17,577 nucleotides of DNA from a bacterium (GTDB taxonomy: Bacteria; UBA9089; CG2-30-40-21; SBAY01), in assembly GCA_040757115.1 (NCBI GenBank), contig JBFLYA010000071.1:1-17577 (forward strand). The letters run 5' to 3'. Position 1 is the stretch's first letter; every line of letters begins with the position of its first letter. A program made the translations under genes and the position numbers. A model generated the notes under the pieces. The model had not been told where the DNA came from, ran no database searches, and was given only the letters and a program-made list of their open reading frames with translations. Shown here piece by piece: positions 1,643 through 16,457 of the stretch.

Positions 1643-1649
1643 AATTTTT

Positions 1650-1744: not shown

Positions 1745-1911
1745 TTTCAGAGACCATCTAATTTTCTTCGTGTTCTTCGTGGTGAATAGTTACGTGGATT
1801 CAAGCAAACCTGGCCCAAGACTTCGATGCACCGCTATAGCGAATCCAATGACTCTATTCGATAATTCATCAAATTTCACTTCGTGCTCTCCGTGCCCTTC
1901 GTGGTGAATAG

Positions 1912-2763: not shown

Positions 2764-2814
2764 AATTTTCCTCCTTTGCGTTTAGATATTCTGGTAGTCT
2801 ATGTAGCCCGGGCA

Positions 2815-3036
2815 CTAACTGTTCAGCCGTGTCTATCAGATGGGACAATATTAACTCAAAACTCAAATGTCAAAACTCAAAACCTCATCTCAAAACCTTA
2901 AAACTAATAGATTCATTGAGATTTATTGCGACTGATGGAGAAGCCTTTAGTTTTTAGTTTTAAGTTGTAGTTTTGAGCTTTGCGTTTTGAGATTTGAGTT
3001 ATAGTTACATATTTTTATCTATACCTGAACGGTTAC
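2815..3036. mobile_element. Palindromic MITE with IS66-like ends between znuA and znuB
   Basis: The right end CCTGAACGGTTAC (3024-3036) faces a diverged left end CTAACTGTTCAGC (2815-2827; ten of thirteen positions pair). The flanks are a perfect 8-bp duplication, CCCGGGCA, at 2807-2814 and 3037-3044, which is strong because this site is G+C-rich and not repetitive. The interior is an imperfect palindrome of ACTCAAAACTCAAA units facing TTTTGAG/TTTGAGTT units. It splits the permease gene from the binding-protein gene and may affect read-through. Confidence 0.82.
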
Positions 3037-3081
3037 CCCGGGCAGATAGGCACTCAGATACCAGACCACCGAATGGTTGCC

Positions 3082-3984
3082 TTATTTCATTGTTTCTTCT
3101 ATTTTTTCAATTATGTAATCAAAGAGTTTAAAATAATTATTAACCCCTTTTACACCTCCTGTCTGGCCTGGAAGGAGTAAAACCTTTGCACCTGTTTTCC
3201 TTGAGATTAAATCTGGTGCTTTGAGAGAAAAATATGACTCAACAATTATTAATCTGACCTCCTCCTGTTTTATTGTTTCAATAAGTTTTGCCACATGAGA
3301 AGGTGAAGGTGGAATACCTGGTTTTGGCTCAACAAAGCCTGCAATTTGCAAGTCAAAGGTATTTGTAAAATAGGGCCAGGAATTATGATAAGTAACAATC
3401 TTTGTTCCTTTGTATCTTGAAATTTTCTCTTTCCACTCAAGAATTTTTTCATCAAGTTTTTTTAAAAAATCTGCCCTATTTTTCTCAAAATATTCTTTAT
3501 CTTTTGGTGAAATCTTAACGAGGGTATTTAAAATATTTTTTGTAACAACCTTTGCACTCTCGGGTGATAAAAGATAATGTGGATTTCCATAGAGGTGTAT
3601 ATCCCCCATAGAGGCATCTATTTTCCCTTCAGGAACTTCTAACTTTTTAACCCCAACGGATACATCGCAATATCCTTTCTTACCATAAAACAAATTTGAA
3701 TTTCTTGCTGTCTCAACAAGTGAATCAACCCACATATCTAAGTCCATCCCAATTTTTACTAACATATCTGCATCCCTTAATTTTATTACCATACTTGGTC
3801 TGGGCTCAATTTGATGAATATCCTGATTTCCAGTTGACAAACTTACCACAGAAACCTTATCTCCACCTACATATTCAACTAAACTTTTCAGGTCTTCTGT
3901 AGTGGTTACAACTTTTGTTGTTGCAAAGACAGTTGAGTTTATGCTTAGAAATAGCGGCAGAATAAATATCCATATATTTCTCAT
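3082..3984 (-). CDS. znuA: Zn/Mn-type ABC transporter substrate-binding protein (ZnuA-like)
   Basis: Periplasmic metal-binding lipoprotein-like or secreted protein of the cluster A-I family (ZnuA/TroA), which captures Zn2+ or Mn2+ for the permease. Residues 1-21 are a signal peptide (hydrophobic core, cleavage near VFA/TT; no lipobox cysteine). Metal ligands by family position: H57 in QDIHQIEPRPS, H136 in GNPHYLLSP, H200 in TYHNSWPYF and an acidic ligand near E249 (IIVESYF). The length of 300 is normal. The His-rich loop of many ZnuA proteins is missing; only GDIHLYGNPH remains. Start: ATG with AAGGAG about nine bases upstream. A MITE (4004-4160) is inserted immediately upstream of this Shine-Dalgarno sequence, between it and the outer-membrane protein gene. 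The missing ATPase gene would normally be adjacent. Confidence 0.92.
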   Translation of the reverse strand: MRNIWIFILPLFLSINSTVFATTKVVTTTEDLKSLVEYVGGDKVSVVSLSTGNQDIHQIEPRPSMVIKLRDADMLVKIGMDLDMWVDSLVETARNSNLFYGKKGYCDVSVGVKKLEVPEGKIDASMGDIHLYGNPHYLLSPESAKVVTKNILNTLVKISPKDKEYFEKNRADFLKKLDEKILEWKEKISRYKGTKIVTYHNSWPYFTNTFDLQIAGFVEPKPGIPPSPSHVAKLIETIKQEEVRLIIVESYFSLKAPDLISRKTGAKVLLLPGQTGGVKGVNNYFKLFDYIIEKIEETMK

Positions 3985-4003
3985 TTTTTTAGCTCCTTTT
4001 TTC

Positions 4004-4160
4004 GTAACCGTTCAGGGAGTCTGGTGTCTGGTGTCTAAGTATCTATGTTACATAGATTACCAGACACATAGACACCCTTTACGCAAAATCGTAGGACTTG
4101 CTACTGTCCTGATTTCCCGAATGTTAACTGATTGCTGATACAGGATGGCTGAACGCTTAC
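4004..4160. mobile_element. Palindromic MITE with IS66-like ends upstream of znuA
   Basis: GTAACCGTTCAG (4004-4015) and CTGAACGCTTAC (4149-4160) are inverted copies with one mismatch. The flanks CTTTTTTC at 3996-4003 and 4161-4168 are a perfect 8-bp target duplication. The interior holds GTCTGGTGTCTGG units on the left that face CCAGACACATAGACACC. It shares ends, but not its core, with the elements at 1406-1642 and 2815-3036. It lies between the outer-membrane gene stop and the znuA ribosome binding site; its removal would leave a gap of about 40 bases, typical of an operon. Confidence 0.85.
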
Positions 4161-4182
4161 CTTTTTTCTTACTCCACACCCT

Positions 4183-5289
4183 CTACTCAAGTGGGTGACT
4201 ATGTGGTCCTATCCCAAATTGCAACTGCAAATATGCAGAATCATTTTTATTTTCAAAATCATATTTATACTGCAGTCTCAACTTGGTTGTCTCGGTTAAA
4301 TTTCTTGTAGCAATTAGAGATAAACCTTCAGATTTTTTTGCTATATTTACATCATCATTATGTGGCCAGGCATCCTCTGTATGGTCATATCTAACACCAA
4401 AATCGTAATACTTATTTAGCTTATAGTTTGCAAAACTGTAAAAGCCACTTCTTTCTATTTTACCAATAGGAACCTCTCTTTTTAAGAAAAAGATTTCATT
4501 TTGCAACAAAAATCTTTTATGAGCAGAGAGCCATTTTTTGTAGGTCAGGTCTATTCCATAAACTTCTACATTATCTTTATGTTCTTTAAAATGTGCTCCT
4601 TTCCCTTTGGCAAAATTTAAGCCAATTTCTAATTCAGAAATATCTGACCATGGATACGAACCCCACAATTTTGCTGTACAAACCTTGTCTGCAAGAGAAA
4701 ATTCATCTGTATGATGCTCTTCTTCATCGTGGTGGTGATGACCTTCTACATACCATGTTCCTAACTCAAACTGAAGGAATCTTTTTGTTGGCAGTAGATA
4801 ACTTAACACTGCTCCTTGTCCCACTAATCCATGCCCCCCAAAGAAATTTGTAATAACCTCAGGCTGGTCAGCATAAGGTCGATGATGGGAGTGAATCTTA
4901 TTTATTTTCCCAAAATCAGTATGGATTTTTCCTGCTTTTAGATTAAATCCTTTTCCTAAATTTAAGAAACTGACATAACCTTCACAAATTTCTGCTACGG
5001 TTTCTTCTCCATGTCTATGCATTGCTAAAAACATATCCGCCCGCATCTGTGGATAAATATATCCTTGCAATGCCAATTCAACTTCCCTGACTAAAATTTT
5101 ATTTCTCTCTTCATCATTTTTATCATCATTTAACTTTCCGACTATGTCTCCAACAAAACTTACATCCGGAAAGTTTGCCGTAGTTGTTTTCATCCCTGGT
5201 GGCAGAGTTGATTGTTCCTCCTGATTTTGAGCAAAGGAAATACCTCCCAATAGAAAAACCATCAATAAATTAATAAAATTTTTTTTCAT
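4183..5289 (-). CDS. Histidine-rich outer-membrane beta-barrel protein of the metal locus
   Basis: I do not recognise a named family. The protein has a clear signal peptide (residues 1-20, MKKN...SFA, cleavage before QNQEE) and then alternating hydrophobic/polar segments typical of an outer-membrane beta barrel of 16 or more strands, ending in a short strand before HSHPLE. Histidines are concentrated in apparent loops: H133, H135, H136 (KIHSHHRPYAD), a cluster at 184-193 (GHHHHDEEEHH) and the C-terminal HSHP. There is no TonB-box or plug domain that I can see and the length of 368 is porin-like. Its place directly before znuA, with AGGAGG before the ATG, suggests a zinc-concentrating or zinc-conducting porin induced in zinc shortage. 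That role is inference. Alternatives: another divalent metal, or a structural barrel protein. Confidence 0.75.
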   Translation of the reverse strand: MKKNFINLLMVFLLGGISFAQNQEEQSTLPPGMKTTTANFPDVSFVGDIVGKLNDDKNDEERNKILVREVELALQGYIYPQMRADMFLAMHRHGEETVAEICEGYVSFLNLGKGFNLKAGKIHTDFGKINKIHSHHRPYADQPEVITNFFGGHGLVGQGAVLSYLLPTKRFLQFELGTWYVEGHHHHDEEEHHTDEFSLADKVCTAKLWGSYPWSDISELEIGLNFAKGKGAHFKEHKDNVEVYGIDLTYKKWLSAHKRFLLQNEIFFLKREVPIGKIERSGFYSFANYKLNKYYDFGVRYDHTEDAWPHNDDVNIAKKSEGLSLIATRNLTETTKLRLQYKYDFENKNDSAYLQLQFGIGPHSHPLE

Positions 5290-5365
5290 TTTTGAACCTC
5301 CTGTAAATAGATTTCACCGCAGAACCACAGAAGACGCAGAGAGTAATAAAAAACCAACTGGTATT

Positions 5366-5386
5366 AAGGGCAAGCCATGAGCCCTT
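5366..5386 (-). other. Short perfect hairpin between small protein and porin-like gene
   Basis: AAGGGC (5366-5371) and GCCCTT (5381-5386) pair exactly across a 9-base loop. On the minus strand it is followed after 12 bases by a T-run (about 5347-5353), so it could be a weak attenuator within the metal operon. The rest of 5290-5497 holds part of a CCGCAGAACCACAGAAG repeat and an inverted TTATGG/CCATAA pair, and no gene. Confidence 0.3.
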
Positions 5387-5497
5387 GCATCATCCTGCTG
5401 GGCAAACGCTTATGGTTATCCCTCCATAACAGAGCAAGCTGCCTGTCCCTCTTCTGTCTTGCGAATTGTTTTTTTACCGCGAATGGAAAAAACGGGG

Positions 5498-5758
5498 TTA
5501 TGCCGGTGGGGCACGACTAAATAGAGAGGTTGAAGCAATTGAAGGCAATAGCAAAGATTCTTGGGGTAAATCTAAAGCGGAAATATGTTGAAGGATATCA
5601 AATGAGACATCATCCTGCTGAATTAAAGATAACTGGTGGCTTACAATACAAAGTGAACACTCAGAATGTGAAGTCTCATCCTCGTGGTGATGAAAGCCTC
5701 CTACAAAGGAGAAGAATAAAAAAAGTAATATCAAAACAAAAGAAATCTTTTTATTCAT
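5498..5758 (-). CDS. Small secreted His/Cys metal-binding protein (DUF2946-like)
   Basis: An 86-residue protein with a hydrophobic leader (residues 5-21), then a compact metal-binding patch: H23-H25, H31, C34 and C37 (CSLC) and H41. It ends in RAPPA. A CxxC-x3-H patch after a leader and a terminal R[AG]PP sequence are, from memory, typical of small DUF2946-like proteins found beside metal and heme transport genes. I chose the ATG at 5758 rather than the longer frame to 5794 because the leader begins there and because the upstream bases are a promoter whose predicted start site falls at about 5759. The mRNA would then be nearly leaderless, in line with the absence of a Shine-Dalgarno sequence. 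First gene of the metal operon; a periplasmic zinc sensor, chaperone or buffer role is inference. Confidence 0.65.
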   Translation of the reverse strand: MNKKISFVLILLFLFFSFVGGFHHHEDETSHSECSLCIVSHQLSLIQQDDVSFDILQHISALDLPQESLLLPSIASTSLFSRAPPA

Positions 5759-5765
5759 AGAACCA

Positions 5766-5794
5766 AGTTTAACATAAATAGTTATCATTGTCAA
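5766..5794 (-). promoter_or_regulatory. Promoter of the metal operon
   Basis: On the minus strand: TTGACA (5794-5789), a 17-base spacer, then TAAACT (5771-5766). The expected start is near 5759, one base before the ATG at 5758. The spacer and -10 carry TAACATAAATAGTTA (5770-5784), a weak dyad (TAAC/GTTA) placed where a Fur/Zur-type repressor would block the promoter. The promoter call is good; the operator is a guess. Confidence 0.6.
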
Positions 5795-5803
5795 GAAAAA
5801 AAA

Positions 5804-6070
5804 TTAAAAAGCTGGTAATGCCTCGGTTATCAGGTGTAAATTGTTTGTAGTAACCCGCTTTATCGGATGAATTCCTGATAAACAACCGCATAATGTTTTT
5901 TGCAAAAGTAAGTTCCTCTTTTCGCAACTAATGTGGAGTGCGAAAGTGCCAGAGATGCTATCTCCTTGCTTTCGCTTACGGATAAGTCTCATCCGCATTA
6001 TATCCAGGCCGGTTTCAGGATCAATTACAGCCCCTAAATCATTAATTACCTTCCATTTTAAGCTCTCCAT
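5804..6070 (-). CDS. DUF59/MIP18-like protein, divergent or decaying
   Basis: The first 30 residues (KVINDLGAVIDPETGLDIMR plus MRLI) match the DUF59 (MIP18/SufT-like) signature V.DPE.G.[DN]I..[ML].L. These proteins assist Fe-S cluster assembly. The end (GIHPIKRVTTNN) still resembles the family's closing G[IV]..V.V...N strand. The middle, where the conserved SP.CP cysteine region belongs, reads ALHISCEKRNLLLQ and is poorly conserved, so the gene may be diverged or decaying. The length of 88 is slightly short (usual about 95-110). Start: ATG 6070 with GGGAG seven bases upstream. It overlaps the 3' end of the MinD gene by 29 bases, implying translational coupling. A 36-base imperfect palindrome lies within it (5940-5975). 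Confidence 0.55.
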   Translation of the reverse strand: MESLKWKVINDLGAVIDPETGLDIMRMRLIRKRKQGDSISGTFALHISCEKRNLLLQKTLCGCLSGIHPIKRVTTNNLHLITEALPAF

Positions 6071-6914
6071 AGCATTGCTCCCAGATCTTTTTAATGGTAA
6101 CAGAAACTTCTGCGTGGCTATACTCGACCACAGGTTTTTTATTAACCAGTGATTCTACCACCAGCGGGTCAAAACGGATTTTGCCCACCAGACTATATCC
6201 GTTCTGCTGGCAATATTGTGTAATTCTCTCTGCCATCTCGGTATTCAGATCGTATTTGTTGATACAGACCAGGGTTGGGATGCCAAAATGGCCGGCTAAT
6301 TTAGCCACCCGGTCTAAATCGTGCAGTCCGGATAGAGTGGGTTCGGTTACCACCAGCACAGCCGATGCCCCGGTGATAGCCGCAATTACCGGACAGCCAA
6401 TACCTGGCGGGCCATCAATAATAATCAGGTTATATTTATGTTTTTCAGCTAACAGTTTAGCCTGATTTCTTACTAAGGTAACCAGCTTACCAGAGTTTTC
6501 CTCAGCTATACCCAGCTTTGCATGTGCCATCGGGCCATATTGGGTCTCGGATATAAACCAATCACCAGATAGGTTCTCCTCCATTTTAATTGCCTTTTGC
6601 TCACAGATATGGCTGCAAACCCCACAGCCTTCACAGGAGATAGAATTAACCTTGAAACCAGGTGATATGGCATCAAACCGGCAAACAACTATGCACTTAC
6701 CGCACTTATTACAGGCCCGCATATCCAATTTAGCAATCTTACCGCTTCTAAACTGGTGAGTCTCTTTGACCTGAGGCTGAAGCAGAAGATGCAGGTCTGC
6801 CGCATCCACATCGCAGTCTGCCATAACCTTGTTTTTAGCTAAAGCAGCAAAAGAAGCAGTAATAATAGTCTTACCCGTGCCTCCTTTACCGCTGATAACA
6901 ACCAGCTCTTTCAA
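6042..6914 (-). CDS. MinD-superfamily P-loop ATPase with inserted two-cluster ferredoxin domain
   Basis: Cytoplasmic ATPase of the CobQ/MinD/ParA group. Walker A is GKGGTGKT (residues 9-16, deviant MinD lysine at 10), followed by a DCDVDAAD switch. A 2[4Fe-4S] ferredoxin insert has C68-C71-C74-C78 and C94-C97-C100-C104. The later IIIDGPPGIGCPV and VVTEPT segments are the Walker B and adenine-binding regions. The family occurs in anaerobes next to DUF59 and NifX-like genes and is thought to act in Fe-S or cofactor metallation (NBP35/Mrp relatives); the exact role is unknown. Start: TTG at 6914, six bases after AAAGGGGG, which gives MKELVVISGKGG and fits the family; the frame continues upstream but has no better start. 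A 5' copy with ATG instead of TTG survives at 16811-16898. It overlaps the DUF59 gene. Confidence 0.9.
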   Translation of the reverse strand: MKELVVISGKGGTGKTIITASFAALAKNKVMADCDVDAADLHLLLQPQVKETHQFRSGKIAKLDMRACNKCGKCIVVCRFDAISPGFKVNSISCEGCGVCSHICEQKAIKMEENLSGDWFISETQYGPMAHAKLGIAEENSGKLVTLVRNQAKLLAEKHKYNLIIIDGPPGIGCPVIAAITGASAVLVVTEPTLSGLHDLDRVAKLAGHFGIPTLVCINKYDLNTEMAERITQYCQQNGYSLVGKIRFDPLVVESLVNKKPVVEYSHAEVSVTIKKIWEQCYGELKMEGN

Positions 6915-7204
6915 TTTTATTCCCCCTTTCAAATCTAAAATAGAGCTTGACAATGCCTGCTCACAAACTACTGTTATACGCTCTGCCGATCTACTCTCAC
7001 GTATGTGTTTAGCTCCTTAATATGTGTTGAGCTTCCTCATTAAAGAGCCAGAAATCGTTTTGTTTAATTGTAAATTTTAAATTGCAAATTTTAAATTTTT
7101 TCGACCTGTGAAATAGGTTTACAAATATCCTCCAATAGAGTAGAGAAAGCGTCCCGCTTTGTATCTTCAGTGAGAAAAAGAATAAACAGGCCGCTCCTAT
7201 GGAG
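6915..7204. other. Intergenic stretch without a confident gene
   Basis: No complete gene is visible. The MinD reading frame stays open upstream to about 7018 (residues ...HIRESRSAERITVV...), which may be the tail of a lost gene, but I do not recognise it. There is an AT-rich inverted run (TAAATTTTAAATTGCAAATTT) at about 7070-7100 and a perfect AAAGCG/CGCTTT mini-hairpin near 7147-7161. A terminator for the DUF4325 gene is possible but not clear. Confidence 0.35.
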
Positions 7205-7798
7205 CTAACTCATATCTTTGTTTGGTAAAATAGCCTCATAGACAAACTGTCTTCCTCTTTCATCAAGTAACTCTTCATTTCGACTTACCAGGTGTAATTT
7301 GTATAAGTTAAGTAGCCTTGTAGAGCTGGTATTAATTTCAAGACCCATTAAATCCGCTAATTCTCTGGCAGAGAGTTTGCCTTTTTTTAATACATAACTT
7401 AAGGTATCCCGAAGATAGGTGTTTAATACTCCTAATACCTGATAAGCTTCATTTTCATCAAAAGATAGTATGGCTAATTTCTTACGCTCTAATGCTACTT
7501 CAATATTCTCCCGCTGGGTTGAATTTGTTCCCTTTAACAGGATGTGTTTATCTCCATACTCGCCAGAATTAAGTCTGGTGATAAGTTTAGCAATAATCTC
7601 ATCTGCACAGGAATAGTCAATAATACCAATGCCTCCAAAATCTAATATAATTATTGTCCCTTCTGGTTCTTTTTCTAACATACCTTCAATAGCCTCTCGA
7701 ATCCTTTTGCCTGTTTGGCGAGTGACTAAATTAAAAGAGCCATTGGTAAGGCACGTAGCCATAATATTTTTTAGTTGATAAGTGTTATGCCTGGTCAT
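7205..7798 (-). CDS. STAS-like DUF4325 protein with C-terminal winged helix
   Basis: Residues 15-110 form a STAS-like alpha/beta domain of the DUF4325 type: TNGSFNLVTRQTG followed by IIILDFGGIGIIDYSCADEI, where the strand-Asp and the Ser-x-x-Asp-Glu turn are family hallmarks. Residues 125-190 form a winged helix (LSARELADLMGL then TSSTRLLNLYKLHLV), suggesting DNA binding. Such proteins usually pair with GHKL ATPases, in an arrangement recalling anti-sigma/antagonist switches. The likely partner here, the STAS-GHKL gene at 15452-16375, is 7.6 kb upstream, beyond the defence island. Start: ATG 7798 with GAGG ten bases upstream; an internal ATG at 7762 has no ribosome site. A role as a transcriptional switch for the island is inference. 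Confidence 0.75.
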   Translation of the reverse strand: MTRHNTYQLKNIMATCLTNGSFNLVTRQTGKRIREAIEGMLEKEPEGTIIILDFGGIGIIDYSCADEIIAKLITRLNSGEYGDKHILLKGTNSTQRENIEVALERKKLAILSFDENEAYQVLGVLNTYLRDTLSYVLKKGKLSARELADLMGLEINTSSTRLLNLYKLHLVSRNEELLDERGRQFVYEAILPNKDMS

Positions 7799-7873
7799 GG
7801 ATATTTTACCTCAAATTATTCACTTAAAAGGCTACATCAAGTTTCTTTTCCATTATACTTTATCCTTTTATCA

Positions 7874-8070
7874 ACAGCAATTCTCGGTGAAATTTTGCAG
7901 GTAGTATTGACAATGGATCTCAGGCAAAAGCAAAAATGTTTTTCGCCAAGATTCTTGGTAAAGAGAGAATGTAGTGAGGGACTTTAGTCCCGTTATAATG
8001 CTTGTGGTTACTATAAGACGCACCTAAAGGTGCTCACTACAGTCTAGTTACATTCACCGAGAATTGCTGT
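7874..8070. mobile_element. MITE with 18-bp inverted ends and 7-bp duplication
   Basis: ACAGCAATTCTCGGTGAA (7874-7891) and its exact reverse complement (8053-8070) bound 197 bases without a gene. TTTATCA occurs directly on both sides (7867-7873 and 8071-8077), a 7-bp duplication. A solo end lies at 787-803. A smaller palindrome (7970-8041) is nested within. The ends differ from the GTAA family, so this is a second element type; the parent transposon is unknown. It sits between the DUF4325 gene and the promoter of the structured RNA. Confidence 0.75.
7970..8041. repeat. Small palindromic repeat with TGTAGTGAG ends
   Basis: TGTAGTGAG (7970-7978) faces CTCACTACA (8033-8041). Within are two short hairpins, GGGACTTTAGTCCC and GCACCTAAAGGTGC. 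It resembles REP-like units of the GTAGTGAGCACCTTTAGGTGC type. No target duplication was seen. Confidence 0.6.
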
Positions 8071-8086
8071 TTTATCAAAAAAACTC

Positions 8087-8115
8087 TTGACAAATTTATT
8101 AAAATGTAGTATATT
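8087..8115 (+). promoter_or_regulatory. Strong sigma-70-type promoter of the structured RNA
   Basis: TTGACA (8087-8092), a 17-base spacer and TATATT (8110-8115) give a near-consensus promoter on the plus strand, opposite to all surrounding genes. The predicted start at about 8122 falls three bases before the basal stem of the RNA. From the base before -35 to the base after -10 it closely matches the promoter of the minus-strand operon at 15394-15422 (about 27 of 33 positions agree). Confidence 0.8.
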
Positions 8116-8121
8116 ATTATA

Positions 8122-8228
8122 ATAGAGTTTGTGAGTAAGGCCTATACGGTTCCCAAGGGGACTTTGCTCTGTGAGTTGAAGAATGATCCTTGGGGGGTAC
8201 CATATAGGGGTCGCAAACTCATTTTTTA
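8122..8228 (+). ncRNA. Structured small RNA convergent with DUF3800 gene
   Basis: The transcript folds into a long interrupted hairpin. The basal stem is GAGTTTG (8125-8131) with CAAACTC (8214-8220). After an asymmetric internal loop (8132-8140 and 8209-8213) comes an 18-pair helix: 8141-8158 (CCTATACGGTTCCCAAGG) with 8188-8208, with two mismatches and a three-G bulge (8192-8194). The apical loop is 8159-8187. A T-run (8222-8227) follows the basal stem, so it may act as its own terminator. The end meets the stop codon of the convergent DUF3800 gene. Candidate structured RNAs named for their association with DUF3800 genes are known from comparative genomics; this may be one of them or a relative. 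A short 6S-like RNA is the alternative. Function is unknown. Confidence 0.75.
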
Positions 8229-8888
8229 TGCAGATAAATTCTCCTCCTCAAAACATATCTTTTCCTTGAAAATCTCATACCAGTCTAAATTTTTATTCTC
8301 ATATTTTCTAAATATTCCCCAACAGAAAAGGTCTACTGCCTGTAGCCCTTTACTCGTTTTGGAATCTAAATGAAAGACATTAAGTTTCACCTTAGGGGAA
8401 AGGCTTCCTTCTAATTGATAAAGAAGGTATGCGTCGAATGTTCTTTGTTCTTCTTTGGTCTTACACCGATCAAGAGTTATAATTATTCTGGAACTTGCTT
8501 TTTTAAGTGGGCACCTTTCAATTATTAACCTTGCCAGGTAGTTATATAGCCTTTCTTTATCTTTCCTTAAAGTTTCGGGAACTTTCTTTTTGTTGAAAAC
8601 TACCACATAAAGGCTAAATGGATCATTTTTAATTTGTCTATAAAAGTATCTTTTTGTCCCTATACTTGTTTTAGACCCTTTAAGCTCTAAGGAGATATTC
8701 TTTTTTCTGACGTAATTAACCTTACTTTTAAGTGTCCTTGCAACAGCCTTCTCTATGTTTCTAATTACAAAACCACTTTCAATTACCAGCAAAGTTATTA
8801 TGAAATAGCCAGTCGTCTTCGGCTTTGAGAAATCAAACCCTAAATCACCACTTTCATCAAGATATAAATATAACATTTTCGTATTCAT
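8226..8888 (-). CDS. DUF3800 protein (RNase H-like fold, predicted nuclease)
   Basis: The N-terminal LYLDESGDLGF (residues 7-17) is the DUF3800 hallmark: the first-strand Asp and Glu are the presumed metal-binding acids of an RNase H-like site. Other family marks are SLELKGS (about 66-72), IIITLDRCK in the centre, and the closing FHLDSKTSKGLQAVDLFCWG and KYENKNLDWYEIF helices. The length of 220 is typical. The family is common in phage-defence and mobile regions and is thought to be a nuclease. The start is uncertain: ATG 8888 has GGAG only one base upstream, and ATG 8876 (MLYLYLDESGD) fits the family better but its GGAG is 13 bases away. The sequence up to 8875 is copied from inside the PLD gene, so the native 5' region has been replaced. 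It is last in the operon and convergent with a structured RNA. Confidence 0.85.
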   Translation of the reverse strand: MNTKMLYLYLDESGDLGFDFSKPKTTGYFIITLLVIESGFVIRNIEKAVARTLKSKVNYVRKKNISLELKGSKTSIGTKRYFYRQIKNDPFSLYVVVFNKKKVPETLRKDKERLYNYLARLIIERCPLKKASSRIIITLDRCKTKEEQRTFDAYLLYQLEGSLSPKVKLNVFHLDSKTSKGLQAVDLFCWGIFRKYENKNLDWYEIFKEKICFEEENLSA

Positions 8889-9051
8889 TCTCCAGTTCTT
8901 TAAGTTTTTCTAGTTCGGCCCAGGGTCTAATAGAATTACCAATAGTCCTGCCGGGTGCTGGTGAAGAGTATCTTATATAGTTTGATTTTTTATGATTCTC
9001 AAGGCTTAAGTTAAGTTGTTGTGACTCCATATGATTCCCATATTTTAACAT
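8857..9051 (-). pseudogene. Chimeric scrap: methyltransferase 5' end joined to PLD-gene segment
   Basis: This 64-codon frame is stitched from two upstream genes. Bases 8918-9023 match 14251-14356, the first 36 or so codons of the large methyltransferase, at 105 of 106 positions (QQLNLSLENHKK through to IRPWAE). Bases 8875-8914 match 11216-11255, inside the PLD nuclease gene, at 39 of 40 positions (LEKLKELENEYEN). Three bases separate the two pieces. The start ATG overlaps the ART stop (TAATG) and the frame runs into the DUF3800 gene in another phase. A functional small protein is unlikely but possible, since the frame is open and coupled. Confidence 0.8.
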
Positions 9052-9377
9052 TATTCTTTTCTCCCTCCGCCAAGAAATTGTATCAAATTATCATCCCATT
9101 TTTGAATCATATATACATGTTTACGAGGATTTTTTAATATTTGAGGGTCTATATCAAACTTTAAGTAATATTTGACTCTTTTTAACACATTCAGATTCAT
9201 TGATTGCCAACAATACCATGCTATTACTCCATCATTTGTATTAGGACCTAAGTTGGTAAAATACCATCCAGTACCATGTGCTGAATCCATTGCTATCCAC
9301 GGAGCGGATGGCCTAAATTTTCTAGTTCTCATAATATTATCGTAATTTTCTTTACTTGTATAATGGTAAACTATCAT
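9051..9377 (-). CDS. ADP-ribosyltransferase-like toxin domain (Tox-ART-HYD1 type)
   Basis: A single small domain of 108 residues. YHYTSKENYDNIM (residues 4-16), FRPS (21-24), and HGTGWYFTNL (34-43) follow the pattern YHYT...I...L.PS.....G.G.YFTDL of the HYD1-like ADP-ribosyltransferases first noted in polymorphic toxins. The H in YHYT would contact NAD. The rest (VKYYLKFDID, then VYMIQKW) gives the later strands. No secretion signal, so it is probably cytosolic. The ATG overlaps the TGA of the macro-domain gene (ATGA), a coupled pair. With that partner it resembles an ADP-ribosylation toxin with a macrodomain antidote. Target unknown. Alternative: an RNA 2'-phosphotransferase-like or other ART-fold enzyme. 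Confidence 0.72.
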   Translation of the reverse strand: MIVYHYTSKENYDNIMRTRKFRPSAPWIAMDSAHGTGWYFTNLGPNTNDGVIAWYCWQSMNLNVLKRVKYYLKFDIDPQILKNPRKHVYMIQKWDDNLIQFLGGGRKE

Positions 9378-10282
9378 TTTTTTATTTCTCCCAAGGGAAC
9401 TATTGCATATTGTAGATGTTTGACATACTCCGGTATTTCTGCCTCATCCTTCTCATGAACTACAATATCGATTTCTTTTAAGGGACCATGATGAAACTTA
9501 GTAAAACAATAGTTAATGGAAATCAGAAGGAGTAGTACGGCTGTACTTATAGATATACCTCCTCGGCCACTACCCAAAATAGGCATAATTAGTTTAGAGA
9601 TTCTCATAATAGCTGTTTTTTCAAAGATTTGTTCAACACATTTGCAAATGGAGCTCGGTTCTGTTTTAAAGCCAATAGATTCTGCTTTTAATACTGAAGC
9701 TATTAATAAAATATTAACATTAAGATTGTAAAAGGAAGATAACTCGATGATAGTGCCTACTGGATAAATTTCGTTATTGTTTCGTTGACAATCTACTTCT
9801 CTTTCTTGCAATTGACCTTTAATAAATTGTTTAAGTTCTGAAATTCTATCAGGACAATATGTGATATTAAATGAACCAAATGCAGTTTTAGTATCCACAA
9901 GCTCATCAATAAATGTTGCATCAACGGGAAGTACTACTGCTACTGTTTTATCTAAACCTGAAATATCTTCAATCTTGCCTATTTTGATGTTAACTTTATA
10001 TTTCCCAAATGTAAGAGGAAGAGGTTCATTCTTAATGTTTATTTTTTCCTTCACCCATTTGTTTTGTTTCAGAATTTGAATAACACCACAACCCACAAGC
10101 ATAACTCCCATTATGAATAATAGCCATCTTGTTAAATCTGTTAGAGTTACTGGAAAACAGAAACCTGTTATTTTATCATATTTAAAAATGGAAGATAAAA
10201 TGAATAAGAGCCCAACTAATATTGTCAAAACAATAGGATTTTTGGATATTAATATTATAATCTCTTTTATCTCTTTAATCAT
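9374..10282 (-). CDS. Two-TM membrane protein with cytoplasmic macro domain
   Basis: Two transmembrane helices (about residues 16-34 and 52-72) form an N-terminal hairpin. A macro-type ADP-ribose-binding domain follows from about 93 to 282: VAVVLPVDATF (114-124), AFGSFN (134-139), YPVGTIIEL (173-181), the glycine-rich PILGSGRGGIS (234-244) matching the macro phosphate loop P.IG.G.GG, and IDIVVHE (271-277). It may therefore bind or remove ADP-ribose at the inner membrane. Start: ATG 10282 has GGAG eight bases upstream. An earlier ATG at 10300 overlaps an upstream stop (TGATG) and would add six residues. The stop overlaps the ART start by four bases. Similar TM-macro proteins occur in defence loci. 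Whether it is an antidote, sensor or effector is not shown. Confidence 0.72.
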   Translation of the reverse strand: MIKEIKEIIILISKNPIVLTILVGLLFILSSIFKYDKITGFCFPVTLTDLTRWLLFIMGVMLVGCGVIQILKQNKWVKEKINIKNEPLPLTFGKYKVNIKIGKIEDISGLDKTVAVVLPVDATFIDELVDTKTAFGSFNITYCPDRISELKQFIKGQLQEREVDCQRNNNEIYPVGTIIELSSFYNLNVNILLIASVLKAESIGFKTEPSSICKCVEQIFEKTAIMRISKLIMPILGSGRGGISISTAVLLLLISINYCFTKFHHGPLKEIDIVVHEKDEAEIPEYVKHLQYAIVPLGEIKK

Positions 10283-10299
10283 AACTTGTTCTCCATCCA

Positions 10300-10449
10300 T
10301 CAATAATATTTCCCTACAAAATGTTTTTCTATCATCCCCCTAATCTCCTTACCATTTACAAGTTCTACTTCTGTCTTTTTATCAGATTGAGTTGGTATAT
10401 TATAAATAACAGTTTTGCCAAATGTGTATAATATTATCGTATGTGGTAA
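10300..10449 (-). pseudogene. Possible C-terminal remnant or tiny overlapping frame
   Basis: An open frame of 49 codons without a start codon except an internal ATG 11 codons before its stop reads LPHTIILYTF...KKTEVELVNGKE...FVGKYY. Its composition looks protein-like after about 10400, where the PLD gene has ended, and its stop overlaps ATG 10300 (TGATG) of the macro gene. That is how a real preceding gene would be coupled. I do not recognise the family. It may be the tail of a lost gene or chance. Confidence 0.3.
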
Positions 10450-11488
10450 TCAGTCTAATAACGCCACGACCTATGGATTTAAGTCGATGAGTTTGTAGGA
10501 AATTATCCATTTCATCATATCCCTCATCCCTCGGCATCAACAGAACATAATGAAATATTCTAGTACCAATCTCTCTTACAACTAAAATTGGACGACTATC
10601 CGATGGATAAGGTTTATCTCTTTTAGCTGCAAATTCGATTTTTATATTTCTGTTTCTCCTGCTGAATACTACGGGTCTAACTTCTTCCTGGCCTATTTTT
10701 GTAGGAGATATTTTTTCAAACAGATATGCTCTTTCTGATGAATTAGGTTGAACTTTGAAGAATTGCCTGTTTACATCCACATTAAAATGGATTTGAGTCC
10801 ATCGATCTCCGGCTTTTGGCACCTCAGCAACCAACATCTTTGAATTTTCTTCGACAGGTATTATTTCAATCTCCTCTTTCTCCTCCTCAGATATTTCTTC
10901 TGGTTCAACTTCCTCGATAATTTTCCGCTTTCTCCGAATAATTCTATTTTGTCTGGCGAGTTCTATTATTTCATCATTAATTTCTTTTAAAGAATCCGAA
11001 TGGATTTCTAAAAACCGCTCCATATCTCCAAGATCAACTTCTTCACCTGGCTCGGAAATAAAAACAGAATAAGCTTCAATATTATTTTTTAATCCTCCAT
11101 GAGTAAGATTACCTGAACCAACAATGATAACTTGTGTTCCATCATTTCGAATAAAGTGGACAATCTTGGGATGAAAAACACCTTCCATTCGTTTATAAAA
11201 TATTTTAACTTTGAAATTTTCGTATTCATTTTCCAGTTCTTTAAGTTTTTCTAGTGCAGCAGGATCAGTAATAGCATCTATTCCAATAATTAAATCAGTA
11301 CTACCTCGTTGCAAAAACCTTCTAACATCCGGATCGTCCAAGAGACCACCTATTCCTGGTCGAGAAGCAAAAGCGAATATGCCTCTCCATAATATGGTCT
11401 CCGGGAAAATTAATTGATCGATAATAGCCTCAATAAGATAATGTGGATTTTGACTATGTGGATCCTGAATGTAAAAATTATATTGCAT
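10400..11488 (-). CDS. PLD-family restriction endonuclease (NgoFVII/BfiI-like)
   Basis: Residues 1-145 form a phospholipase D-type nuclease domain with one HKD motif: H106-P-K108 in VFHPKIVHFI, then GSGNLTHGG (124-132, with N127) and the closing NNIEAYS (E138). A single HKD implies a dimer with one active site, as in BfiI. A charged linker (about 185-214, EEVEPEEISEEEKEEIE) leads to a C-terminal domain (218-362) starting MLVAEVPKAGDRWTQ, which resembles the B3-like DNA-recognition part of NgoFVII-type enzymes. Start: ATG 11488 with AGGGGGAT six bases upstream; a longer frame to 11512 is less likely. It overlaps the SPPYW methyltransferase by 11 bases, as expected for an R-M unit. Bases 11216-11255 are duplicated at 8875-8914. 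Confidence 0.82.
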   Translation of the reverse strand: MQYNFYIQDPHSQNPHYLIEAIIDQLIFPETILWRGIFAFASRPGIGGLLDDPDVRRFLQRGSTDLIIGIDAITDPAALEKLKELENEYENFKVKIFYKRMEGVFHPKIVHFIRNDGTQVIIVGSGNLTHGGLKNNIEAYSVFISEPGEEVDLGDMERFLEIHSDSLKEINDEIIELARQNRIIRRKRKIIEEVEPEEISEEEKEEIEIIPVEENSKMLVAEVPKAGDRWTQIHFNVDVNRQFFKVQPNSSERAYLFEKISPTKIGQEEVRPVVFSRRNRNIKIEFAAKRDKPYPSDSRPILVVREIGTRIFHYVLLMPRDEGYDEMDNFLQTHRLKSIGRGVIRLITTYDNIIHIWQNCYL

Positions 11489-12344
11489 TTTTATCCCCCT
11501 GTTGTGATTCACTCATCAACTCTGAATAGAACTTCACCGTTTTTCCTTTTGCCTTCGTCTTTGGTGGCTTCATAAAAATCAAAATATGCTCATGGACATT
11601 TTTAAAAAGAAGGTTAGGTGGATATGGATAACTTCCAAATATCGGTCTTTGAGAACCCCAGGAGCCCCACTTACCACCAGTGCCGTTTTTATTCCAAATA
11701 ACCTCATTTACTAATACAAAACCAATATCCCTTAACCGAATAATAAAATCTGCTGCTAAAGGAAAAGTCAGAAGACCATAATCGGTATGCTGGTTTACAT
11801 TAGCAGTTACTAGACATATTTTGCGACCAGGCATTAACACCCTATAACATTCTTCAAAAACAGGTTGAATTTCCTCAAAGAATTTCGTGTACATATTAAT
11901 ATTGCCCAGATTGATCTCTTTATTCCCATAATCTGCTTTATTCCAATAAGGTGGACTTGTTACAATGAGTGCAATAGAATTATCTTCAACAAAACCTAAC
12001 TCCCTACTGTCACCGATGTTAGTAACAAGCTTATCTCCAGGATTAATATTTTTTTCTTCCAGATCATTTCTCAGGATATTAAGATAATCCTCATTTTGTT
12101 CAACACAAATAGCTTTTCTATCTAATTCCAGAGCAATCCTGCCCGTAGTTCCAACTCCTGCAAAAGGGTCTAACACTGTTTCCCCGACAAAAGTAAACAT
12201 TTTTATTAGTCTTTTAGGAATTTCCTCTGGAAAAACAGCCGGGTGTTTAGGATGTTTGATATTTGCAATCTGCCATACCGTCAATGTATATTCGCGCCAC
12301 TCATCCTTTGTAATTTTACTCCGCTCCTTTATTTTTGAATCCAT
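11478..12344 (-). CDS. Site-specific DNA methyltransferase, SPPYW (N4-cytosine or N6-adenine)
   Basis: Amino-methyltransferase of 288 residues. It starts with a motif X-like WQIANIKHPKHPAVFPEEIP, then motif I DPFAGVGTTG (59-68), motif II ICVEQN, motif IV TSPPYW (129-134), and a C-terminal part with WNKNGTGGKWGSWGSQRP. SPPY is most typical of N4-cytosine enzymes but also occurs in some N6-adenine enzymes. The AdoMet-binding half precedes the catalytic half, a gamma-like order, whereas most SPPYW enzymes have the opposite order. Start: ATG with AAGGAG inside the last codons of the upstream methyltransferase. It would protect one strand of the site cut by the PLD nuclease, which follows with an 11-base overlap. 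Confidence 0.88.
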   Translation of the reverse strand: MDSKIKERSKITKDEWREYTLTVWQIANIKHPKHPAVFPEEIPKRLIKMFTFVGETVLDPFAGVGTTGRIALELDRKAICVEQNEDYLNILRNDLEEKNINPGDKLVTNIGDSRELGFVEDNSIALIVTSPPYWNKADYGNKEINLGNINMYTKFFEEIQPVFEECYRVLMPGRKICLVTANVNQHTDYGLLTFPLAADFIIRLRDIGFVLVNEVIWNKNGTGGKWGSWGSQRPIFGSYPYPPNLLFKNVHEHILIFMKPPKTKAKGKTVKFYSELMSESQQGDKNAI

Positions 12345-12347
12345 ATA

Positions 12348-14360
12348 TTACAACTCCTTTGTTTTGTTATTTTTCTTTGTATCAATTTCATTTTCTCTTC
12401 CGCAGACAATTATAGATCTCGTCAACTCTTTGAAATAAGTATATTTTTCTGTCGGCATATCAACAAGTTCTAATAATATTCTGTCAATCTCATTTATATT
12501 CTCTTCAGCGTTATAAGGACAATAGGTAATAGACTTTACTTTGGAATTATTACTGACTATGGGTTTTTTACTAATAGATTCCCATAGTTTAATGCTGTTT
12601 TCTTCTACAATAGTTTTTTGCTTTGGGGACAAATCATTAATACTATAAGGCACTCTTTTTATAAAGGAAAGATTTAAATGAAAACCATCCCCTTCAACTC
12701 GCCAAAGCCAATATAGTATCCTGCTTGTAAGTATGCCATAGGCAATATTTGCATCTTTTTCAGTTTTAAATGAGATCGGAAATAAAGTTGAATATGAATT
12801 TTCTTCGTCATTTGTGGAATATGGGTTAAATCGATATATTGAAAGCCAATTATATGAGGTCCTCCCGACAAATATCCTGTTTGGAGTATGCTTATTAGAA
12901 TTATCTTCAATAATATCTTGCCTTAATCGACTCTTTCTGTTTAATAGTTTAAAATATAAAGTTTTTTCAAAATCAGTTCCGATTTTAGGAATGCTTTGTT
13001 TTATATTAAGATTTTCTAAACAAGTATGTGTTATGTTTTTAAAAAGAGATGTGCGATTTCTACTGTTCCATCGCAACAACGGAGTTGTAAAAATAGATTT
13101 TTTATTGTTCTTGTTTTGGTCAATGAATATAATCGTGTTTCGTGTTTTAACATCATCACCAAATAATGAATCCGGAGTTCTATCAAAATTAGTAAAGTAG
13201 CAAATTCTATTAATGTTCATAATGTCTTCCCTGATTTTACAAAATTCCCGGCCAGTATTGTAAGTAATTGAAAGAGGAACAACTATAGCACCCGCAGAGT
13301 GTTGAGGCTTGCATACAGACCACATTATTCTAATAAAATCCGGATATAAATAATCCCCCCTAATTCTTTTAGAATACGGAGGATTTGTAACAAAAAAGGT
13401 GAAATCATTTATTATAGAAAATATCTTTTTTATGAGACTCCTATTTAATTTTGTAGCATCCATGACTGCGAGATTTTTTTTAATTGTTTGATAATAATAC
13501 CAGGGTCTATCAATATTAACATCAGTTTGACTTAAGCAAAATGTTAATAAATTAAACGCACTGGATTGAATTGCCTGTCTACTAATATCTATACCATATA
13601 TCTTTTCTTTGATAAATCGTATTATATCCTCTATTCTATTGGGTATGAATTTTTCGTTGATATAGTATTCTACGATTGTTTTTAAAAATAATCCAGAACC
13701 ACAGGCAGGATCTATCCATTCACCCTGTAAAAAATCTAACCTATCCTTTTTCTTTTCAACAATATTTTTTATCATGAAATACGCAACATCTGATGGTGTA
13801 TAATAAATACCAAATTCCCGTTTTTTCATTCGCTCAAATCCATTTTTCAAGAATAGTTCATTGTCCGTTTCATAAATTTCTAATATATATGGATATAGAT
13901 CTAAAAACATCTCATTATATGATAACTCGCATAATGATTGAGTGCTTATATTATTTAGCCATTTTTCTAAGGGGTTAATGTCTAATTTAATATACCCATT
14001 ATAAAACCACATTACACTTTCTAATAAGCCTGCATTTTTATTTACATTATTGGTAGAAACTCCTGTGAGCCACATACTTAAAATGGCATTTGTGAGAAGA
14101 TTTACATTCTTTCCATAATCGGTAGGTGTATTTTCTATTAATGGTGTGTGAACATTAAGATTGTTTTTATAGAAATGGCTTAATTCTTCTAACATATTGA
14201 GTTCTTTAGCCCTTTTCTTCATTTCTGCAGATATTGTTAAAATCTTTTCAGCCCAGGGTCTAATAGAATTACCAATAGTCCTGCCGGGTGCTGGTGAAGA
14301 GTATCTTATATAGTTTGATTTTTTATGATTTTCAAGGCTTAAGTTAAGTTGTTGTGGCAT
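12348..14360 (-). CDS. Large N6-adenine DNA methyltransferase (NPPY, type I/IIG-like)
   Basis: A 670-residue protein. After a helical N-terminus comes FGIYYTPSDVAYFMIKNIV (183-201), motif I WIDPACGSGLFLKT (215-228), YGIDIS (255-260), VMDATKL (299-305) and motif IV VTNPPYSKRIRGD (324-336), the pattern of N6-adenine methylases of type I HsdM and type IIG proteins. Residues 440-640 (NRIFVGRTSYNWLSIYRFNP...) look like a target-recognition region, so no HsdS is needed. There is no nuclease motif at the N-terminus, so cleavage would be left to the PLD protein. Ribosome site AAAGGAAATGAG before the ATG. The first 36 or so codons are duplicated at 8918-9023. It is four bases from the next methyltransferase. 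Confidence 0.88.
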   Translation of the reverse strand: MPQQLNLSLENHKKSNYIRYSSPAPGRTIGNSIRPWAEKILTISAEMKKRAKELNMLEELSHFYKNNLNVHTPLIENTPTDYGKNVNLLTNAILSMWLTGVSTNNVNKNAGLLESVMWFYNGYIKLDINPLEKWLNNISTQSLCELSYNEMFLDLYPYILEIYETDNELFLKNGFERMKKREFGIYYTPSDVAYFMIKNIVEKKKDRLDFLQGEWIDPACGSGLFLKTIVEYYINEKFIPNRIEDIIRFIKEKIYGIDISRQAIQSSAFNLLTFCLSQTDVNIDRPWYYYQTIKKNLAVMDATKLNRSLIKKIFSIINDFTFFVTNPPYSKRIRGDYLYPDFIRIMWSVCKPQHSAGAIVVPLSITYNTGREFCKIREDIMNINRICYFTNFDRTPDSLFGDDVKTRNTIIFIDQNKNNKKSIFTTPLLRWNSRNRTSLFKNITHTCLENLNIKQSIPKIGTDFEKTLYFKLLNRKSRLRQDIIEDNSNKHTPNRIFVGRTSYNWLSIYRFNPYSTNDEENSYSTLFPISFKTEKDANIAYGILTSRILYWLWRVEGDGFHLNLSFIKRVPYSINDLSPKQKTIVEENSIKLWESISKKPIVSNNSKVKSITYCPYNAEENINEIDRILLELVDMPTEKYTYFKELTRSIIVCGRENEIDTKKNNKTKEL

Positions 14361-14409
14361 ATTAGCTCATTTCCTTTCTTTAGTTACATCAACTTGATAA
14401 CAGCAAAAA

Positions 14410-15333
14410 TTAAAATGAATTTAGTAGTTTTTCTAATTGTTTTGAAATTACGAGGGAATTTTCCAAATTGATTCTGGCTAACCGTTTTGCCTCAGCAATT
14501 AGTTTTTTTTGCACATCCTCAATTCTCTTCGCATCTTCTAATGGCTTGGGAGATGAGTCTATAGCAATCACTCTCTGTAAATTGTCTCTTATTTGCCTAA
14601 TATTTGCATAGTGATAAGATAAATTAAATACTAATTGGCTATTACCCAATAGTCCTAACCAGCCTATGTTTATCATTGAGTCCCAAGAATCGGTTATAAA
14701 ATAACAAAAATCACCCTGATATTTACTTTCAGGTAATTGAGAAAATTTAGCAAGAAAATCATCATCCCATTTTATCTCATTAATAATACTTTGAATTAGT
14801 TCTCTTTTTCGTTTCTTATCTTCGTCAGTACTAAAAAGATATGATGATTTGGTATAGGTTAGAATCTCTTGACTCGTTTTAATCTGATTCCCTAATGATT
14901 CAACTTGCTTCTTCTCCTGGTTTAACATTTCAGATAATATCTCTACTTGATGACGGATATTTTTAAGAGTTTTCTCAGTATTGGTAGCAATAGAATCTGC
15001 TCTAACGAGTTGGGTATAGGACAGATCATTATTCTTTTTCATTTGTAATTGTTGTTGTTGAAATAATTGTGTTTGTGTACCCATTTCATTAAATAACTTG
15101 GCGACATTCTCAGCATTTTTCTGAGATTCACGACGAGTATCATTAAGTGCCACAATAGCAACAAAACAGGCAACGGTAGTCATAAAGCAGGAAATGATAG
15201 TCATAAAATTCATAATATTAGAGAATGTAAAAGTTCCTTTCTCTCTCTTCCTATCAGTAACATACCATATAAGTAAGATTATTCCATATAAACTGAGTCC
15301 CCCTAAAAACCAACCTATCATTAAGCCTAACAT
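14410..15333 (-). CDS. Membrane-anchored coiled-coil protein, first gene of the island operon
   Basis: I do not recognise a family. Two transmembrane helices (about residues 4-25 and 41-64) are followed by a long coiled coil (about 66-165, rich in Gln, Lys, Glu and Asn, e.g. KLFNEMGTQTQLFQQQQLQ) and a mostly helical C-terminal domain (175-307) with an aromatic patch (FCYFITDSWDSM, then WLGLL). This layout of two helices, a coil and a helical head is common in membrane sensors or effectors of defence systems. It is the first gene after the promoter at 15394-15422, with AAGGATG about ten bases before the ATG. Role unknown; it may anchor or regulate the products of the operon. Confidence 0.6.
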   Translation of the reverse strand: MLGLMIGWFLGGLSLYGIILLIWYVTDRKREKGTFTFSNIMNFMTIISCFMTTVACFVAIVALNDTRRESQKNAENVAKLFNEMGTQTQLFQQQQLQMKKNNDLSYTQLVRADSIATNTEKTLKNIRHQVEILSEMLNQEKKQVESLGNQIKTSQEILTYTKSSYLFSTDEDKKRKRELIQSIINEIKWDDDFLAKFSQLPESKYQGDFCYFITDSWDSMINIGWLGLLGNSQLVFNLSYHYANIRQIRDNLQRVIAIDSSPKPLEDAKRIEDVQKKLIAEAKRLARINLENSLVISKQLEKLLNSF

Positions 15334-15385: not shown

Positions 15386-15393
15386 TCATAAAT

Positions 15394-15422
15394 AATATAC
15401 CATATTATTCTAAATCTGTCAA
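15394..15422 (-). promoter_or_regulatory. Promoter of the defence operon
   Basis: Minus strand: TTGACA (15422-15417), a 17-base spacer and TATATT (15399-15394). The start is expected near 15387, giving a 5' leader of about 54 bases to the ATG at 15333. An A/T-rich run (15423-15452) lies upstream and could act as an UP-type element. The -35 to -10 region closely matches the promoter of the structured RNA at 8087-8115. Confidence 0.8.
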
Positions 15423-15451
15423 GTGTTTTTTTTAAATTTTTTTAAATTTTT

Positions 15452-16375
15452 TCACGAAATTTCAGGAAGGATAATACTTATTTGTGTTCCTGGGAAGAAA
15501 CTAAGTGCAGATTGTTGAGGTTTAGTAGTATCCCATTCAGGCACTATGCCCAGTTTAGCTGTTCCTGAGCGAATCATAAACTTACCACCCCATTTTTGTA
15601 CCAATTTTCTTACATTTGTTAGTCCATGCCCTCTACCTATATCATCATACCGGGATGCACCTTCAAATAAAGCAAGCCTGATTGCTTCCAAATCGGACCA
15701 ATCTTTATAACGACTACTGTACTTATGGGTAAGAGAGTCTTTTATTCCTATCCCTAAATCCATAACCGCAATCTTTACCACATACTTGCCTAACCTTTTT
15801 TCGTAAAGGTACCTTTGAATGCCCACATACCCCGCAGATTGGCTATGTTCCGGAATATTCTGACAAATTTCTGATAAAGCGACAATAAAGGAATCAATGG
15901 CTTGAGTATCATAGTTAAGATTCGTCTTTAAAATAGTTTCTGCCCTTTGTTTTACTCTGTCCACAATAGTATGAATATCATCTGTCCCTTCTATCTTTGT
16001 AATTTCAAGCAAGACATCTGAGTGTCTACTTCGCAAGAACCGATCTTCTATTTTTATAGTGGAAGTATCTATTTCAAAGACATTGCCTGCCTTCTCCAAA
16101 AAGTCCATCCGCTCAAGATACTTTAACACATCTGTTAATTGAGGCAAGATAAGTATTGGAATAATGTCTGATTCCTTCTTCAAATACCAACCGATTTCCA
16201 ATAACCCAACCATCCCATAAGGGTCGATAAACTCAGCTTTGGCTATATTGATAATGGCTCCATTTTTTATACTATCCTTCTTAGAACTTAATTGGGAAAA
16301 TAGCCTTTCAAATGTATTTTCATCTAAGGATGTTGGTGAGGATAAACTATCTGCTATGCGATCTATAATCTTCAT
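15452..16375 (-). CDS. STAS-like plus GHKL ATPase regulatory protein
   Basis: Residues 1-100 form a STAS-like domain (IKNGAIINIAKAEFIDPYG... then IPILILPQL); the antagonist-type serine is replaced, as the turn reads DPYG. Residues 135-307 form a GHKL ATPase: N-box EICQNIPEHS, G1 VMDLGIGIKDS, G2 GRGHGLTNVRKLV and the final FFPGTQISIILP strand. No kinase phospho-acceptor domain is present, so it resembles an anti-sigma-type switch kinase rather than a sensor kinase. Start: ATG 16375 six bases from AAAGGAG; an adjacent ATG at 16378 is also possible. It ends 30 bases before the operon promoter. DUF4325 proteins such as that at 7205-7798 are its likely partner. It may control the operon downstream; inference. 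Confidence 0.82.
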   Translation of the reverse strand: MKIIDRIADSLSSPTSLDENTFERLFSQLSSKKDSIKNGAIINIAKAEFIDPYGMVGLLEIGWYLKKESDIIPILILPQLTDVLKYLERMDFLEKAGNVFEIDTSTIKIEDRFLRSRHSDVLLEITKIEGTDDIHTIVDRVKQRAETILKTNLNYDTQAIDSFIVALSEICQNIPEHSQSAGYVGIQRYLYEKRLGKYVVKIAVMDLGIGIKDSLTHKYSSRYKDWSDLEAIRLALFEGASRYDDIGRGHGLTNVRKLVQKWGGKFMIRSGTAKLGIVPEWDTTKPQQSALSFFPGTQISIILPEIS

Positions 16376-16457
16376 CATCAGCTCCTTTCAATCCCACCTC
16401 ATAGGGGTAGCATTTACTGCTTCACAACATGAAGCCATAGATAATGTTCTCTAACTC

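Follow-up and report, generated by a model that had tools for sequence, protein, structure and literature searches.

Pairing of a stand-alone HYD1-type ADP-ribosyltransferase with a ThsA-like membrane macro-domain protein in bacteria and an archaeon: a possible Thoeris-like unit

The DNA studied here, referred to throughout as the window, is a stretch of 17,577 nucleotides from a bacterium of the GTDB lineage UBA9089 (contig JBFLYA010000071.1 of assembly GCA_040757115.1). It carries on its minus strand two overlapping genes, the upstream one for a protein with two transmembrane (TM) helices and a ThsA-type macro domain (TM-macro) and the second for a stand-alone HYD1-type ADP-ribosyltransferase (ART). 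This pairing of ART and TM-macro is conserved and common to bacteria and an archaeon, and a gene for ThsB, the TIR signal-maker of Thoeris, does not stand beside it. With a probability of roughly one half, we read the pair as a Thoeris-like abortive-infection unit in which the ART replaces the TIR enzyme. No description of the pairing was found in the open literature searched, subscription papers lying outside the scope of that search.

Two overlapping genes and their products

The TM-macro gene extends over positions 9374..10282 if read from an ATG (302 aa) or 9374-10303 from a TTG (309 aa), the ATG at 10282 being the preferred start given a GGAG about 8 nt 5' of it. The ART gene occupies 9051..9377 (108 aa), likewise on the minus strand, and the stop codon of the first gene and the start codon of the second share the four base pairs ATGA (9374..9377), an overlap that points to translational coupling of TM-macro and ART.

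Hydropathy predicts two TM helices in TM-macro, at 10205..10261 (residues 15-33 of the 309-aa reading; helical in the structural model) and at 10070..10126 (residues 60-78; modelled as helical over 56-85). After them comes a macro domain at 9401..10027 (residues about 93-301) that is delimited by profile and structure matches. The stretch PILGSGRGGIS holds a GSGRGG loop (9557..9574) with the invariant alignment columns G244, S245, G246, G248 and G249, which reads GSGHGG in relatives and aligns with the GSG loop of ThsA; loops of this type are the expected phosphate/ADP-ribose loop of macro domains. TM-macro matches PF20016 (ThsA_Macro) at E 7e-11 and 42.6 bits, above the cut-off, as well as the ThsA models of PADLOC, while the generic Macro family PF01661 reaches 21.6 bits, just below its cut-off. 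In HHalign comparisons, the alignment with canonical ThsA (E 4.5e-12) spans TM segment and macro domain, whereas that with MacroD (E 1e-6) covers part of the macro domain only.

The structural model of TM-macro is of moderate quality (predicted local distance difference test, pLDDT, 75), with a clear macro part. Its top Foldseek match is 8r66, a ThsA macro domain with signalling molecule (E 7e-10), and VIA aligned it with PcThsA at Z 18.6 (189 residues at 2.9 Å), the structures nearest to the model thus being complexes of ThsA macro domains with a signalling molecule, either ADP-ribose or imidazole adenine dinucleotide. Since other macro domains come within about 1 Z of these, ThsA is not set apart by the fold search on its own, whereas the sequence profiles do set it apart. 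Consistently, the ART-associated TM-macros form their own clade in the tree (81/89) beside ThsA (100/98) and apart from MacroD (95/95), with 18-21% identity to ThsA in the macro domain. Taken together, profiles and model describe a likely two-helix membrane protein with a ThsA-type macro domain, for which we propose a sensor/effector role.

The 108-aa product of the second gene is confirmed as a stand-alone HYD1-type ART. It matches Tox-ART-HYD1 (PF15633) at E 2e-7 with 32 bits against a cut-off of 25, the only Pfam family to match at E<=1, and it shares with the polymorphic-toxin members of this family the motif YHYT...GxGxY[FL]T. Concerning the HYD1 signature H, [RK], [FY], [DE], H5 and Y39 are invariant in the alignment and the acidic position varies across the seven ARTs, the family score remaining above the cut-off. 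The AlphaFold2 model has a mean pLDDT of 89; its Foldseek E-values are weak, and the recognisable top matches are mostly ART-fold enzymes (TreTu, Tpt1/KptA, PARPs). VIA added Agrobacterium 6b (Z 9.5) and Tne2 (Z 7.1), middling values that by themselves are insufficient proof of an ART fold, and a search of PDB sequences with the ART profile gave no matches. An earlier note on this DNA, made from the sequence alone, had described an ART-HYD1-like single-domain protein joined by a 4-bp ATGA overlap to a macro protein with two TM helices and the PILGSGRGGIS stretch. PF15633, hydropathy, PF20016 and the sequence itself bear this description out, and the ART and macro folds it assigned were both recovered in the models and their structural neighbours.

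Recurrence and genomic company of the pair

In order to find relatives, about 85,000 genomes were scanned with the ART motif only (a start-like ATGA, YH[YF]T, then GxGxY[FL]T). The scan returned 14 loci, 12 of them with HYD1-like ARTs, and in eight of these 12 the ART lies inside a larger protein, mostly an RHS-type toxin. At the four loci with a stand-alone ART, the same TM-macro is encoded directly upstream every time, compared to none of the ten other loci (Fisher p = 1/1001, calculated by hand). These four belong to an Omnitrophota (L018), an Elusimicrobiota (L020), a WOR-3 (L025) and a Methanoperedenaceae archaeon (L028), and in all five pairs, the window included, the distance from TM-macro stop to ART start is -4 to +11 nt. 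As both families also stand side by side in four further lineages of phylum rank, the pair is not a chance arrangement, and the two genes do occur together elsewhere, as the view of the earlier note would have it.

A gene for a MacroD-type hydrolase follows the ART in L018, L020 and L025, while L028 and the window carry the pair without it. In L018 the unit is repeated in tandem, the TM-macro of the extra copy being truncated where the contig ends, and L025 has a second ART after MacroD; these extra ARTs are 52% alike and closer to each other than to the ARTs next to them, so that there are two ART subtypes. The MacroD genes of L018 (2094-2606) and L025 (5642-6148) are 80% identical between Omnitrophota and WOR-3, with 40-52% for the neighbouring ARTs, possibly reflecting recent transfer or unusually strong constraint.

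Profile surveys of 386 mixed, 147 WOR-3-phylum, 218 Omnitrophota-phylum and 149 archaeal-class genomes gave no further full-length TM-macro member, and the system is therefore rare; the rest of the survey matches were weak and partial, those read being MacroD or MacroD-Nudix proteins. Close relatives of TM-macro were found neither in viral contigs nor in plasmids, and a pattern test on viral contigs gave 0 matches. ART relatives in mobile DNA comprised only one family of weak plasmid matches, on IncC plasmids, which sit in an apparent polymorphic-toxin cassette array with no TM-macro annotated.

Several of the loci stand in the company of defence genes, with a BREX- or PglX-like neighbourhood at two of the four related ones. 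In L020, the unit lies directly behind a BREX pglZ-like gene and brxL and ahead of a KAP/PifA-like ATPase; in the coordinates of L094 on this contig, the TM-macro-ART-MacroD cassette behind brxL spans 4834-11107 and the ATPase of 1128 aa follows at 1227-4613. A PglX-like methylase is encoded near the L025 unit, and in L028 the unit adjoins apparent nucleotidyltransferase/HEPN toxin-antitoxin pairs (read by eye). In the window, it comes after two DNA methylases, resembling a restriction-modification (R-M) system, and a PLD-nuclease-like gene, all in one direction. This defence-island company supports an antiviral role without proving it. On the L025 contig (L093 17012-17647), a LexA/S24-like repressor gene lies 61 nt upstream of the TM-macro gene, which suggests DNA-damage control.

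With regard to ThsB, no TIR protein is present among the ten window proteins scanned with Pfam, and no ThsB_TIR match occurs anywhere in the genomes of L018, L020, L025 and L028, while of the four canonical ThsA loci found, three have a ThsB TIR next to them. The ART thus takes the slot of ThsB. The genome of the window does contain ThsB_TIR matches, four in all, but they lie on other contigs and not beside a TM-macro: two adjacent ThsB-like TIR genes on contig C45 (L096 4291-5590) belong to a type I R-M-like locus and are preceded there by a gene for a small multi-TM protein, and the others lie on contigs C69 and C55. A ThsB acting in trans is thus unsupported for the four relatives, and in the window's genome the ThsB-like TIRs adjoin other genes, one being beside a small TM protein.

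The gene row to which the window pair belongs runs on the minus strand from 15333 to 8226. Next upstream of TM-macro, in the same direction, is the PLD-type nuclease-like gene (10400..11512; PLDc_2 at E 2.7e-5, just under the cut-off, and RE_NgoFVII at E 5e-4), preceded by the two DNA methyltransferase genes of N6_N4_Mtase and N6_Mtase/Eco57I type (11478..14360; Pfam E 1e-39 and 5e-11). A TM and coiled-coil protein with weak CARF_TM/SLATT similarity (14410-15333) heads this methylase row. Ahead of the whole row lies a strong sigma-70-like site, TTGACA-17-TATATT (15394..15422, minus strand), which is a consensus match only, at 11 of 12 positions, and one of the two best such sites of the region. 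The row from 8226 to 15333 is bracketed by a 42-nt inverted pair with 83% match (8077-8118 on the plus and 15391-15432 on the minus strand), each arm of which holds a near-perfect sigma-70-like promoter of this form, the left one being directed into the antisense of a DUF3800 gene. A HATPase protein (15452-16378) and a DUF4325 (STAS-like)-wHTH protein (7205-7798) flank the row and could be regulators of the island.

Possible modes of action

Ligands of ThsA macro domains include ADP-ribose and adenine dinucleotides; the domains did not hydrolyse the substrates tested, and they oligomerise on ligand binding (PMC11204291). Type II Thoeris is triggered by His-ADPR, the product of a TIR enzyme (PMC12847820). 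Given an effector of the ThsA kind, an ART next to it and no ThsB TIR in the four related genomes, it is simplest to suppose that the ligand comes from the ART, and the several ARTs per locus in L018 and L025 recall the several ThsB per ThsA. Two of the ARTs have a C-terminal TM helix of their own, and in both genes of the pair codon positions 1 and 2 change less than position 3, which likewise speaks for this reading. For the Thoeris-like unit, we infer catalysis, ligand, oligomerisation, membrane damage and antiviral role along the following lines. Infection or DNA-damage-like stress would activate the HYD1-type ART, which would use NAD+ to form an ADP-ribose derivative. This could be a free molecule, namely ADP-ribose by itself or bonded to a small acceptor, or else a mark on a target close to the membrane. 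The macro domain of the partner would bind this derivative via its GSG[HR]GG loop and oligomerise as ThsA macro domains do, and the clustered two-helix TM segments could then damage the membrane, halting the infected cell. At loci that encode it, the MacroD-type hydrolase might remove the mark or signal and so set a threshold, serving as off-switch.

A more specific proposal, which we hold tentatively and at rather less than even odds, is that an ART-fold enzyme instead of a TIR makes an NAD-derived immune signal that switches on a TM-macro effector of Thoeris type, MacroD being a dedicated off-switch, in an undescribed Thoeris-like type with a new messenger synthase that is shared by bacteria and an archaeon. 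To our knowledge, every Thoeris messenger known so far is the product of a TIR domain. If the proposal is true, a second NAD-using fold would feed the same type of membrane effector, linking Thoeris signalling to the chemistry of ART/macro toxins, and a new ADP-ribose ligand is predicted that could be sought directly by mass spectrometry. Stand-alone HYD1 ARTs would thereby be given a testable cellular role.

Several observations weigh against the Thoeris-like unit. The residues of EcThsA in contact with ADP-ribose are D83, N114, S175, S217, G218, T220 and K262 (PMC11204291); in the alignment, the loop retains its S-G and a serine stands at the position of S175, whereas D83, N114 and T220 are changed, the D83 position being K/E/E/N/R in the five pairs and that of N114 hydrophobic. 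As the ligand-choice residues differ from ThsA, the known ligand cannot be assumed by default and need not be His-ADPR. Furthermore, the third catalytic position varies among the ARTs, the N-terminal segment of the L028 TM-macro is short and weakly hydrophobic, and the window copy, with its ART tail and MacroD gone, may be weakened. The pairwise distances of ART and TM-macro are uncorrelated (r -0.03), so that, with only five pairs, long joint descent is not demonstrated. Finally, YarT, the one stand-alone HYD1 ART to have been studied, acts as a toxin and is countered by a NADAR protein (PMC11125620).

The case of YarT is also the starting point for the chief alternative, which we regard as unlikely, though deserving serious attention, namely a toxin-antitoxin pair of DarTG/YarT logic, in which the ART is a toxin modifying nucleic acid or protein and a macro protein, either TM-macro or MacroD where present, is the antidote. 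Here, the adjacency of MacroD and ART at three loci would fit, the L025 MacroD being weakly DarG-like (E 2e-5), as would a Thiomargarita locus (L017 244-3214) where an RHS toxin ending in a HYD1 ART has behind it a short gene, possibly for immunity, and a gene for a macro domain, an arrangement that may amount to macro-based immunity against a HYD1 ART. However, the invariant partner is TM-macro and not MacroD, which L028 and the window do without; TM-macro does not have the NAAN/GGGV loop that the MacroD hydrolases at related loci have and is nearest to the non-hydrolysing ThsA; and two TM helices are unnecessary for an antidote. The earlier note had favoured such a writer/eraser system acting at the membrane by abortive infection. 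Of this proposal, the coupled and recurrent ART/membrane macro genes and a probable defence role at the membrane stand, whereas writer/eraser as the leading interpretation does not, and TM-macro as antidote or eraser is made less likely by its missing hydrolase loop and its grouping with ThsA in both the tree and the full-length profile including the TM part. An eraser role, if any, belongs to the third gene, MacroD, and the alternative that the note itself had offered, a macro sensor with a TM hairpin as effector, fits better.

Quite improbable, in our estimate, is a guard mechanism, in which the tethered TM-macro would respond not to a diffusible signal but to a host or phage target that it binds and that the ART has ADP-ribosylated, and would then open the membrane. 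C-terminal TM anchors of two ARTs (L025 and L028) would put both proteins at the membrane, and TM-macro has a macroH2A-like PANTTF stretch as well as the macro domains of PARP14 and PARP9, which are ADP-ribose readers, among its neighbours. Nevertheless, most ARTs of this set have no TM helix, and ThsA macro domains neither bind nor process mono-ADP-ribosylated proteins (PMC11204291).

The state of the window copy bears on a further alternative. Its ART ends at GGGRKE, before the Cys-rich tail (roughly C-x5-C-x2-C) that L018, L020, L025b and L028 possess, and the ART-family profile match continues over 9039-9377 with two TAA inside, the codons 3' of the stop (TGT TAA ..., 9039..9050, minus strand) representing the decayed start of the lost tail. 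Directly downstream, where relatives carry MacroD, sits a mosaic open reading frame of 64 aa (8857..9051, minus strand), in which the 5' end of the methylase gene (110 nt, 98% to 14247-14356) is fused to the interior of the PLD gene (55 nt, 87% to 11206-11260), and which could be what is left of another copy of the upstream R-M-like operon, or else a chimera made in assembly. Trimmed tail and mosaic together make it probable that recombination shortened the pair in the window, and its function may have changed. That it is a decayed or non-functional relic, as these losses could also be read, is the least probable of the alternatives, since neither frame is broken within its domain, H5 and Y39 are retained, the first two codon positions are better conserved than the third in both genes, and L025a likewise lacks the Cys motif.

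Relation to known systems

The ART shares Pfam family and motif with the Tox-ART-HYD1 domains of polymorphic (RHS) toxins, but is stand-alone, short and without delivery domains, and the polymorphic-toxin HYD1 versions found have no TM-macro neighbour. In YarT-YbiA (NADAR), a stand-alone small ART of the HYD1 subclade is likewise the second gene of a two-gene unit; the partner here, however, is TM-macro instead of NADAR, a domain absent from the ten window proteins scanned with Pfam. DarTG also combines an ART and a macro-domain protein in one operon, and some of the loci described here have MacroD as accessory. In contrast to DarTG, the ART matches HYD1 and not DarT in Pfam and has no PADLOC match, and the constant macro partner is membrane-bound and ThsA-like; TM-macro gave no DarG match, and no DarG-like gene was identified in the window.

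With type II Thoeris the unit has in common an effector in which a ThsA-type macro domain comes after two TM helices at the N-terminus, a neighbouring gene for an enzyme that uses NAD+, at times more than one such gene for each effector, and a setting among defence genes. The differences lie in the enzyme, a HYD1-type ART and not a TIR, in a macro domain that forms a separate clade with other ligand-contact residues, and in the MacroD hydrolase of three of the four related loci. The unit consequently stands outside type II Thoeris, which calls for a TIR enzyme, while possessing an effector of its kind, with TM helices and a ThsA macro domain.
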